Shown here: in pieces, positions 9,194 to 44,107 of the stretch
How the letters are laid out: every line of letters begins with the position of its first letter
Position numbering within the stretch: the first letter of the stretch is position 1
IMG/VR virus record: IMGVR_UViG_3300006163_000007
Span: 1-44,257 of that record
Reading direction: 5' to 3' (one strand)
DNA from: a virus
DNA length: 44,257 nucleotides
Program-made: the position numbers and the translations under genes
The notes under the pieces: generated by a model
Database searches by the model: none
Told to the model about the DNA's origin: nothing
Seen by the model: the letters and a program-made list of their open reading frames with translations, nothing else

Positions 9194-9514
9194 CTAGACC
9201 CGGGTCGACCTCTGGTCCTCGTAGATCGCGTAGGCGTCCTCGAAGCCCTGCTCCATGAGCGGCGTCGCCCGGCCGGGCGGCTGGAAGGGGTTCTCGCGGG
9301 TCTTGAGCGGCATCGCCATCTGGACGCCGGGGACGTTCGGGTCGATGAAGATGATCCGGAGCCGGTCCTCGGCAGCGACGTACTGAACGTTCACGACCTG
9401 GACGACGGTCCCGGTCTCCTTGTGCTTCCAGTAGCGGGCGATCCGGATGTCCTTCCGGAAGGTCCCTACGCCGGGACGGCTCTTGCGAACGAAGACATAC
9501 GGCGCGTCACCCAT
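9194..9514 (-). CDS. Hypothetical protein, 106 aa
   Basis: A soluble, beta-rich product (YVFVRKSRPG, TGTVVQVVNVQYV, DRLRIIFIDPNVPG) that could form a small barrel. It ends two bases before the start of the membrane protein and begins two bases after the gene upstream, so it belongs to the same transcript. No family recognised. Confidence 0.6.
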   Translation of the reverse strand: MGDAPYVFVRKSRPGVGTFRKDIRIARYWKHKETGTVVQVVNVQYVAAEDRLRIIFIDPNVPGVQMAMPLKTRENPFQPPGRATPLMEQGFEDAYAIYEDQRSTRV

Positions 9515-36450: not shown

Positions 36451-36646
36451 TCCAGGCCTCCAAAGCATGAGGTGAAGAGATGAAACCCTTGAACAAATGG
36501 ATCAGGCAGTATATATGGACCGAACCGTTCTTACAGAGACGTGCGAAACAGTAGTGGGGCTCCACTTGTTTCGAGCCGAACATGACGTTCGAGAGGGGGC
36601 AGAAAGCCTTGACCTGCGGAAGATCGGCGCCTCTCTCCTTCCCCAT
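36386..36646 (-). CDS. Possible small Cys-rich protein, perhaps leaderless
   Basis: The 86-aa frame begins at ATG 36646, only about three bases from the start predicted for the leftward promoter, with no ribosome site. The product has five Cys (FCPLSN, HYCFARLC, IYCLIH) and overlaps the 697-aa gene by 65 bases. Local GC content is lower than around it. Either it is a real leaderless early gene or this is simply the 5' leader of the 697-aa gene. Confidence 0.35.
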   Translation of the reverse strand: MGKERGADLPQVKAFCPLSNVMFGSKQVEPHYCFARLCKNGSVHIYCLIHLFKGFISSPHALEAWNVAQAAEKHSFFRPVLPKRKP

Positions 36647-36655
36647 GGGCTATTT

Positions 36656-36683
36656 ATACTATAGACACCCCCTCCCAGGTCAA
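36656..36683 (-). promoter_or_regulatory. Leftward promoter of the divergent switch
   Basis: Minus-strand TTGACC (36683-36678) is followed by 16 bases and TAGTAT (36661-36656), within an AT-rich TATAGTATAAATA tract. An alternative -10 (TATAAA) would have a 19-base spacer. It faces the 36450 gene and is back-to-back with the rightward promoter at 36709-36736. Confidence 0.5.
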
Positions 36684-36708
36684 CAAAATTCCGAGTAACA
36701 TTTTGCAC

Positions 36709-36736
36709 TTGACTGGTTCAAGAATCAGGGTATACT
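36709..36736 (+). promoter_or_regulatory. Rightward promoter of the replication module
   Basis: TTGACT (36709-36714), 16 bases, then TATACT (36731-36736) gives five of six matches in both boxes. The predicted transcript starts near 36743, exactly at the beginning of the pseudoknot-forming RNA. It is the only good promoter before the helicase gene. Confidence 0.7.
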
Positions 36737-36743
36737 CCTGTTC

Positions 36744-36872
36744 GTGGGCACCAATGCAGAGCATCCGATCCTTCGCGGCCGGGGTAAGGGTTCGTCCGTC
36801 GTCGGTGGCGGTGCCCACACACTTCTGACCGACAGCACGGGCGAACGGGCCGCGAAGGATCAGGCGCTCTGC
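36744..36872 (+). ncRNA. Pseudoknot-forming leader RNA
   Basis: The sequence can form a long hairpin. Stem B pairs GCAGAGC (36756-36762) with GCTCTGC (36866-36872). Stem C has 14 perfect pairs (36767-36780 with 36848-36861). Stem D has 10 pairs plus 5 more after an internal loop (36790-36806 with 36828-36846). The 21-base apical loop carries GGTGCCCAC (36810-36818), perfectly complementary to GTGGGCACC (36744-36752) at the 5' end, giving a pseudoknot. The gap before the helicase GTG is non-coding. No known riboswitch or ribozyme class was recognised. Confidence 0.7.
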
Positions 36873-36882
36873 TAGGGATACC

Positions 36883-36916
36883 CCGGACGTCGCGGAGAGG
36901 AACCGCGGACGGCCGG
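36883..36916 (+). promoter_or_regulatory. Hairpin just before the helicase ribosome site
   Basis: CCGG-A-C-GTC-GCGG pairs with CCGC-G-GAC-G-G-CCGG, with one mismatch and one bulge. The 7-base loop AGAGGAA carries a Shine-Dalgarno-like GAGGA. The true site AAGGAGGA (36927-36934) lies 10 bases further. It may act with the upstream pseudoknot to control helicase translation. Confidence 0.5.
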
Positions 36917-36938: not shown

Positions 36939-38753
36939 GTGGTCACGAGAGCGCCGTCGCCCGCCGTAGGAAAAAAAGAACTGGCACCCTGGCTCTTCAC
37001 CGCCGAGCAGCTCCTCGCGCAGTTCACCCCCGGAAAGACGCCCCGCCCCCAGCAGAAGTACTTCCTGGAGCGGGCCGCCGCCGCCTTCGCCGCCGGGAAG
37101 CGCGTCGTGGTCGGCGAGCTGCCCACGGGCGCGGGCAAGACCGACGCCTGCAAGACGCTGGCGAACGCGCTCCGGTCCGCGGGCAAGTCGTCCTTCATGC
37201 TGACCTCCCAGAAGATCCTTCAGGATCAGTACTCGGCCGACTACCCCTCGCCGGACATCGAGACCATCAAGGGCCGCGCGAACTACCCCTGCACGCACCG
37301 GGACGCGCACCCGGACGGTCAGAACGCCGCCGACGGCGTCTGCCGTTCGCAGAACAAGGGCATCCTGAAGGAGTGCGTCGACGAGGTCGAGGCGGGCCCG
37401 ATCGCCCGCACGGCCGACGTCTCGATCCTCCAGGCCGCGGTCGGTCTGGGCCTGACGCCATCCTGCCACCACTGCCCGTACTGGGCTCAGCTTCAGCGCG
37501 TCCACGACGCCTCGATCTCGCTCTTCAACTTCTCCAGCTTCCTCTTCCAGCAGCGGATCGGCCGCTTCGCGCCCCGCGCCCTCATGATCGTCGACGAGGC
37601 GCACAACACCGAGAGCCAGCTGATGAACTTCGTCACGCTGGAGCTCTCCGAGTGGGCGCTCTCCCTGGTCAACGTCAAGATCGATCGCGAGATCCGCACG
37701 AAGCAGGAGTTGCTCAACTGGCTGGCCGACACCGATCTCGTCCAGCTGATCCTCCGGCGCATCAAGCAGGCCGAGAGCGACACCCGCGACGCCGACGAGG
37801 ATTCCGACAGCCTGGGCGAGGCCCTCTCCGGCGCCGAGCTCGACGCGCTCAAGGAGCTCGACGCCAAGATCGCGAACTTCATGGCCTTCCTGGAGAAGAC
37901 GGAGTGGCTCCTGGAGGTCCAGCGGTACAACGACAAGCGGACCGGCGACGAGCGGAAGAAGATCGTCGCGCGGCCCCTCTACGCGAAGGACTTCGCCCAG
38001 GACCTGCTTTTCCGGCACGCCGAGCGGCTCGTCTTCATGTCTGCCACGATCCTCGACGTCGAGGTCTGGGCTCGGAACCTCGGCCTCTCGATGGACGAGG
38101 TCGAGCTGGTCCGCACGCCCTGCGACTTCCCGGTCGAGAACCGGCTGATCTTCAAGGAGTACTGCGGGAACTTCGGCTTCAAGTACTTCACCCGCGAGCA
38201 GAACCCGAAAGACCCGACCGAGCCGAAGTTCGTCCGCAAGGTCGCGGAGCTCCTGGAGCGCCACAAGGGCCAGCGCGGGATCATCCACTGCCACTCGTTC
38301 AACCTCGCCAAGATCCTGTACAACGGCATCGACGGCCCGAACGCCGACCGCCTGCTCTTCCAGGAGCACTTCGAGAACAAGGACGAGATGCTCCAGGAGC
38401 ACGCCCGCCGGACCGACTCCGTCATCGTCGCTCCCGCCATGCACGAGGGCCTGGACCTGAAGGGCGACCTCTCCCGCTTCCAGATCATTGCCAAGATGCC
38501 CTGGCCGAACATGCAGGACCGGGTCATCAAGATGCGGATGGACCGGGACGCCGCGTGGTACTCCTGGCTCTGCGCCCTCAAGATCGTCCAGTCCTACGGC
38601 CGGTCGATCCGCTCGAAGGACGACTGGGCGACGACCTACCTGCTCGACGCTGGCTTCGAGTCCTTCATGTGGCGCTCCGCGAAGATGCTCCCGGACTGGT
38701 TCCACGAGGCGCTCCGGCGCGGCGCCCCGACGCAGGCCCAGGTGCGGCGATGA
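36939..38753 (+). CDS. XPD/DinG-type superfamily 2 DNA helicase
   Basis: The 604-aa protein starts at GTG 36939 (AAGGAGGA). It has Walker A LPTGAGKTD (61-69), a cluster of cysteines at 118, 135, 146, 176 and 179 placed like the iron-sulfur domain of XPD/DinG helicases, a DEAH box at 219-222, the motif VFMSATI (about 370) and motif VI QSYGRSIRSKDD near 545. Such enzymes unwind DNA 5' to 3', often at repair or replication intermediates. It begins the replication module and overlaps the next gene by four bases. Which four of the five cysteines bind iron is not certain. Confidence 0.85.
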   Translation: MVTRAPSPAVGKKELAPWLFTAEQLLAQFTPGKTPRPQQKYFLERAAAAFAAGKRVVVGELPTGAGKTDACKTLANALRSAGKSSFMLTSQKILQDQYSADYPSPDIETIKGRANYPCTHRDAHPDGQNAADGVCRSQNKGILKECVDEVEAGPIARTADVSILQAAVGLGLTPSCHHCPYWAQLQRVHDASISLFNFSSFLFQQRIGRFAPRALMIVDEAHNTESQLMNFVTLELSEWALSLVNVKIDREIRTKQELLNWLADTDLVQLILRRIKQAESDTRDADEDSDSLGEALSGAELDALKELDAKIANFMAFLEKTEWLLEVQRYNDKRTGDERKKIVARPLYAKDFAQDLLFRHAERLVFMSATILDVEVWARNLGLSMDEVELVRTPCDFPVENRLIFKEYCGNFGFKYFTREQNPKDPTEPKFVRKVAELLERHKGQRGIIHCHSFNLAKILYNGIDGPNADRLLFQEHFENKDEMLQEHARRTDSVIVAPAMHEGLDLKGDLSRFQIIAKMPWPNMQDRVIKMRMDRDAAWYSWLCALKIVQSYGRSIRSKDDWATTYLLDAGFESFMWRSAKMLPDWFHEALRRGAPTQAQVRR

Positions 38754-43856: not shown

Positions 43857-44089
43857 CGGGGCACTTCGGAGTGGCAGCTGGTGCCCCGGACACGGCCTTA
43901 TATCAGCTTGATTACAGGCACTTTGCAGGCGGAACGCAGTCCGGGGCACGACGGGGCACGAGAATGCTTTATATTACGGCAGGTTCCTATCGCTAACGGT
44001 TTAAATGGTTTCCATATGGAAACAGGTAGAAAAGAGTATATGGAAATCCTGGGAGTTTATAAGGCGACTAAGTGCCCCGTCGTGCCCCG
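43857..44089. other. Iteron-like repeats and palindrome (candidate replication origin)
   Basis: The 8-mer CGGGGCAC occurs six times: plus strand at 43857, 43942 and 43952; inverted at 43881, 44072 and 44082. Two pairs have starts 10 bases apart, about one helical turn. The paired blocks 43942-43959 and 44072-44089 are perfect 18-base inverted repeats. Between them lies AT-rich DNA with the perfect 16-bp palindrome GTTTCCATATGGAAAC (44008-44023) and a second ATATGGAAA at 44038. The gap has no credible gene. A replication origin for the primase-helicase is the leading inference; an operator array is the alternative. Confidence 0.6.
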
Positions 44090-44107
44090 AACTAACCCAT
44101 AAATTCT

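Follow-up and report, generated by a model that had tools for sequence, protein, structure and literature searches.

In mycobacteria, leaderless translation requires no more than an ATG or GTG as the first codon of a transcript, and leaderless short open reading frames (ORFs) that run from the first base lie upstream of operons (Shell 2015, PMC4633059). Some of these ORFs reportedly act as attenuators (Canestrari 2020), and those described in this role sense cysteine via polycysteine codons. The 5' stem-loops of E. coli ompA and M. tuberculosis DrrS pair the first base and leave no free 5' bases; in DrrS RNA, unpaired 5' bases are destabilising, and the 5' stem increases the expression of a reporter roughly three-fold (PMC5360333). 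In type I toxin mRNAs, with their metastable 5' structures, and in timP, the fold competes with translation and the states are mutually exclusive; timP contains a pseudoknot, which switches on translation from a Shine-Dalgarno and is counteracted by an sRNA (PMC11228461). The put RNA of phage HK022 is a structured, noncoding RNA that opens an early transcript and contacts RNA polymerase (PMC9378689).

The virus sequence analysed here (44,257 bases, 64% GC; hereafter the window, meaning this whole stretch) carries a leader ahead of a helicase gene that combines traits of these systems. It shares with the mycobacterial ORFs a frame that opens at the predicted first base upstream of an operon, with ompA and DrrS a paired 5' base, with the toxin mRNAs and timP a fold that would compete with translation in putative mutually exclusive states, with timP also a pseudoknot, and with put a place at the head of an early phage transcript. 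Unlike in the mycobacterial ORFs, however, the start codon doubles as the 5' strand of the predicted pseudoknot, and no codon signal comparable to the polycysteine codons was seen. The ompA and DrrS structures are ordinary local hairpins, whereas here the 5' end pairs over a long range with another hairpin's loop, and the structure overlaps a frame. In contrast to timP, a leaderless start would be masked and no antisense RNA is evident, and in contrast to put, the sequence is not conserved and the 5' end is paired. Leaderless upstream ORFs (uORFs), 5' stabilising stems and mRNA pseudoknots are each known singly, but their union on one start codon without sequence conservation appears to be new. 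A literature search found no equivalent element, and the Rfam covariance models gave no match at E values up to 5, in agreement with the first-pass annotation of this DNA, which had recognised no known RNA class.

Promoter and fold of the leader RNA

The leader and the helicase gene precede Sak4-like and primase genes (Table 1). The promoter TTGACT-N16-TATACT is the single such match in the window and was absent from 100 shuffles. Its -10 element is followed after 7 nt by GTG (6–7 nt across all eight relatives), which places the predicted +1 at 36744. The first-pass annotation had let transcription start at the 5' pairing strand; the predicted +1 is indeed the first base of P1, but lies one base beyond the 36743 given there. 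With the start predicted from the -10 spacing, GTG occupies +1 in all eight aligned leaders, and ATG or GTG in 11 of the 12 members. An actinobacterial host is a guess based on the GC content and on proteins with weak resemblance, and mycobacterial leaderless rules may not apply.

Additional features were observed in the window. A divergent promoter (TTGACC-N17-TATAGT) lies on the minus strand at about 36638–36690, with ATGGGGAAG within about 12 nt; this leftward transcript also looks nearly leaderless, and several relatives have a similar layout. An inverted repeat with 22-nt arms (43938–43959 and 44072–44093; 95% complementary, 112 nt apart) is located 3' of the primase gene, and the protein encoded at 1176–1646 matches the domain DarA_C (C-terminal part of defence against restriction A).

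Table 1. Positions of the leader features, the neighbouring elements and a second leader copy in another genome.
Feature	Position	Strand	Support
Sigma-70-type promoter, TTGACT-N16-TATACT	36709–36736	+	Sequence match
P1 5' strand, GTGGGCACC; predicted +1 and uORF GUG start codon	36744–36752	+	Pairing and co-variation
Predicted leaderless uORF, 43 codons + TAG, VGTNAEHPILRGRGKGSSVVGGGAHTLLTDSTGERAAKDQALC	36744–36875	+	Frame open in 8/8; length changes are multiples of three
P2 5' strand	36756–36780	+	25-nt inverted repeat, 88% complementary; co-variation
P3/P4 5' strand	36790–36806	+	Constrained fold; P3 co-varies inside subtype A
Apical loop, 21 nt, holding the P1 3' strand	36807–36827	+	Fold
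P1 3' strand, GGTGCCCAC, within the apical loop	36810–36818	+	Exact reverse complement of 36744–36752; co-variation
P3/P4 3' strand	36828–36846	+	Constrained fold; P3 co-variation
P2 3' strand; uORF stop directly at helix base	36848–36872	+	Inverted repeat; co-variation
Second small hairpin, loop AGAGGAA	36890–36908	+	GAGGAA loop invariant in 8 leaders; stem co-varies modestly
DinG/Rad3-like helicase, opening the rightward replication operon	36939–38753	+	PHROG 2488 (E 5e-99); Helicase_C_2, DEAD_2
L113 copy	about 9297–9425 of its reverse complement	−	Promoter-plus-lock scan

The nested stems and the 21-base loop with nine bases complementary to the RNA start, as described in the first-pass annotation, were recovered as P1, P2 and P3/P4, and the 25 positions of P2 consist of 7 pairs, a short imperfect stretch and 14 pairs. 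The pairing exceeds chance, as had been argued: the minimum free energy of 36730–36890 was −89 kcal/mol versus −62.9 (sd 4.3) in dinucleotide shuffles (z −6.0; 0/200 as low), and an exact partner for the nine leading bases arose in none of 3000 shuffles for the window and at a frequency of ≤0.003 for each relative. The P1 helix ends exactly at +1, with base −1 (C) opposite A in all eight leaders; the predicted first transcribed base is thereby paired and no free 5' bases are left in any of them. These analyses confirm the first-pass observation, which proves to be part of something larger than described there.

As the loop of the P2 hairpin pairs outside, with co-variation, P1 together with P2 is classified from sequence comparison as a predicted H-type pseudoknot. 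With an assumed pseudoknot penalty, P1 plus the remaining helices is about equal in energy to the best unknotted structure, which is compatible with a switch. The linker between P1 and P2 is only 3 nt long in the window, and P1 plus all of P2–P4 would therefore need a sharp bend or partial opening. An HDV-like ribozyme topology was considered and rejected: P3 here encloses the P1 3' strand, and cleavage would hit the start site.

Co-variation among relatives

A query with the helicase retrieved ten close relatives in IMG/VR, seven of which had a recognisable leader. The eight aligned leaders fall into subtype A (the window, L002, L004, L005 and L010) and subtype B (L001, L003 and L006). P1 pairs in 72 of 72 cells; positions 4–8 co-vary (5/9), and the GUG and base 9 are invariant. 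For P2, 178 of 200 cells pair and 13 positions have changed on both sides. Within subtype A alone, 8 pairs have changes on both sides versus 2.4 in shuffles, and shifting the partner by one to three columns lowered pairing from 97% to 33–43%. Since the shuffle controls ignore the relatedness of the phages, we place weight on how many different compensations occur and on the divergent members described below. Compensatory changes, named beforehand as the decisive test, were thus found in P1 and P2 across the eight phages, and a search for homologues that lose pairing without compensation found none for P1. This supports the view that a genuine pseudoknot-type RNA under selection lies at the 5' end of the transcript.

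In a covariance-model search of relatives, which had also been proposed, R1 picked up a single copy in each genome; the leader in the genome of L009 and a second copy in the genome of L004 escaped it. R1 also scores on the minus strand, as expected of an inverted repeat. Such a repeat could also form in single-stranded DNA and, given its location before helicase, Sak4-like and primase genes, might be a DNA-level element, e.g. a replication origin hairpin. We consider this very improbable, as the pairing is phased to the promoter, a reading frame is kept and P3 includes G-U pairs. Ligand sensing, which the first-pass annotation had raised, is not suggested by the data: no conserved unpaired pocket is evident between the subtypes, and the divergent members keep the architecture only.

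The upstream reading frame and the second hairpin

Frame 0 from the GTG forms an ORF that was absent from the first-pass annotation and stops with TAG at 36873–36875 in the window. This uORF has 42–47 codons across the 12 members (43–47 in the aligned eight) and ends near the P2 end; in the aligned eight, the stop is a TAG or TGA at the P2 base. An open frame is weak evidence taken alone, with a frequency per sequence of 0.27–0.71 in shuffles. However, among the eight leaders the P1–P2 linker measures 3, 6, 9, 15 or 18 nt, values of 61, 64, 67, 70, 73 or 76 nt occur for the P2-inner distance, and every one of at least nine length changes in this alignment is a multiple of three. By our estimate, nine such changes would arise by chance with a probability of about (1/3)^9, or about 5e-5. 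The outer P2 pair changed from T-A to C-G, yet the stop was retained, as TGA in L002 and as TAG one codon later in the window. These patterns point to a reading frame under selection. The expectation of a plain untranslated leader was not supported: the structure overlaps a conserved 42–47-codon frame starting at the predicted +1, and the RNA therefore resembles part of an mRNA more than a simple noncoding RNA.

The encoded peptide, in contrast, drifts. Its sequence is not conserved and had no Pfam or phage protein match, codon positions in subtype A diverged equally (127/126/122 changes, i.e. no third-position excess), and the third-position GC of 0.61–0.76, compared with mostly 0.8–0.95 in the genes of this phage, is not coding-like. 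A functional small basic protein that binds its own structured mRNA and thereby autoregulates it might be reflected in the Arg-rich stretches RGRG and DRRRSVRGRG and in the AxxIQRL ends that recur in several helicase-linked members; these motifs are absent in L003, L111, L161 and L113, and together with the even divergence and the lack of Pfam or phage matches this makes such a protein highly unlikely. Since frame and stop persist across a drifting peptide, translation as such seems to be more important than its product, although the equal divergence and the non-coding-like GC mean that an ORF kept only for its frame must be assumed. The element looks like a leaderless uORF selected for translation and folded into its own 5' lock, as judged from these comparative patterns.

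The loop of the second hairpin is a near-copy of the Shine-Dalgarno stretch of the helicase gene and lies 5' of the real Shine-Dalgarno; every helicase-linked leader retains this hairpin. In 9 of the 12 members (the window, L001–L006, L010 and L266) this loop is located 23–25 nt past the uORF stop, and we speculate that the hairpin could be a ribosome standby site or an operator. The spacing, the stop position kept near the P2 end and a GGAGGA loop that may help recapture a ribosome would also suit a translational or transcriptional attenuator, in which uORF transit rather than 5' protection sets expression of the next gene through termination-reinitiation or by shielding the nascent RNA from Rho. 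Precedent exists in M. tuberculosis ppe2, whose expression depends on a uORF by termination-reinitiation (PMC11260477), and in L113 the uORF stop overlaps the start of the next gene as ATGA, a classic coupling arrangement. Against this reading, neither P2 nor the second hairpin is followed in the leaders inspected by a T-run, as a terminator would require, the uORF contains no run of regulatory codons, inspection revealed no shared anti-Shine-Dalgarno pairing, and the phasing of P1 to +1 would be left unexplained. We therefore regard an attenuator as unlikely.

Divergent members and proposed mechanism

Architecture-based searches added at least four members (the copy in the genome of L009, L113, L266 and L161). 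The leader in the genome of L009, missed by sequence and by R1, was recovered by a scan for a promoter plus 5' lock; it comprises in order CCCTAC, GTGCTGATCGACC, a 13-bp P1, P2, a 43-codon frame, TGA, the GGGAGGAA hairpin and the helicase gene, whose product has a longer N-terminus. L113, the second copy in the genome of L004, has a CTG start, a 13-bp P1 and 42 codons. Pattern scans added, among the matches listed, L266 (subtype A) and L161, which has a 12-bp P1 and 43 codons and by inspection precedes another operon with a small gene and RuvC-like and DnaB-like genes. The element is not strictly tied to the helicase gene before which the first-pass annotation described it: the L161 copy precedes this replication operon and the L113 copy a gene of unassigned function. 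In these uncultured phages, L111, L161 and L113 share the architecture while their sequence similarity is unrecognisable.

Among the matches listed, a 9-mer lock was present at 15 of 165 distinct promoters versus 0.28 expected, a count to be read with the caveats that the patterns required CGTG, that several promoters are related and that a few locks stem from nested hairpins; all 15 begin 5–7 nt 3' of the −10 element. L193, L210, L259, L260 and L267, from other uncultured phages, were set apart, since the GTG-initial RNAs that their strong promoters would yield, with an 11–12 bp lock at +1, have nested folds; in L210, L259, L260 and L267 no conserved ORF was found behind the lock. Beyond the helicase relatives, scans with leader-sequence patterns hit nothing but coding sequence by chance. 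Within the searches made, isolate phages contained no leader match (best helicase 29% identical), and bacterial genomes gave no hit to either the helicase or the subtype A leader. No cultured relatives were found of the first genes of the other members or of L210, and those of the L161 DnaB-like helicase are only about 30% identical.

A strong fold at the start of an early transcript with a non-conserved peptide could also indicate a purely structural RNA, such as a put-like processive antiterminator or a protein-binding or nuclease-resistant element, with an incidental frame. L003 and L010 keep the fold while the frame shifts around the P1 3' strand and then returns. Conversely, GTG, stop and frame survive the length changes noted above, the three divergent members also carry frames of 42–43 codons, and put-like RNAs work via specific sequence, which is not kept in these leaders. 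This alternative thus seems decidedly improbable.

We propose instead a translated, self-locking 5' leader, to which we assign an about even probability; P1/P2 co-variation, the phasing to +1, the invariant GUG, the kept frame and the divergent members all argue for it. Transcription from G36744 would yield an mRNA beginning with GUG, on which 70S ribosomes would start without a Shine-Dalgarno. They would translate the conserved frame and terminate at or just past the P2 base, and P2–P4 could not form while a ribosome occupies the uORF stretch. Once no ribosome is loaded, the hairpin would fold and its loop would engage the first 9–13 bases in the pairing seen in the alignments. P1 would then mask the GUG and end uORF initiation, and a 5' end without unpaired bases would be expected to resist 5'-end-dependent decay, with the helicase and later replication genes presumably translated from their own Shine-Dalgarno. 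The net result would be a brief translated phase on the nascent early transcript, followed by a stable message whose 5' end is buried. One counterpoint is L113, which begins with CTG, a codon that did not support leaderless initiation in mycobacteria (PMC4633059).

More tentatively, and at somewhat less than an even chance, these leaders may represent a distinct class of 5' elements in phages with architecture as its sole defining feature, in which a leaderless uORF of ~43 codons has a start codon that is also the pseudoknot 5' strand, so that folding competes with ribosome loading; translation would thereby be gated a single time and the 5' end protected. If this is true, leaderless start codons would be regulated by RNA structure, a subject that the literature consulted hardly touches on, and a phage message would pass through a short phase of translation at its 5' end before becoming protected. 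Since the marks of such elements are their phasing to the promoter, pairing and frame, and not their sequence, they are missed by ordinary homology searches and Rfam, and further ones may exist.
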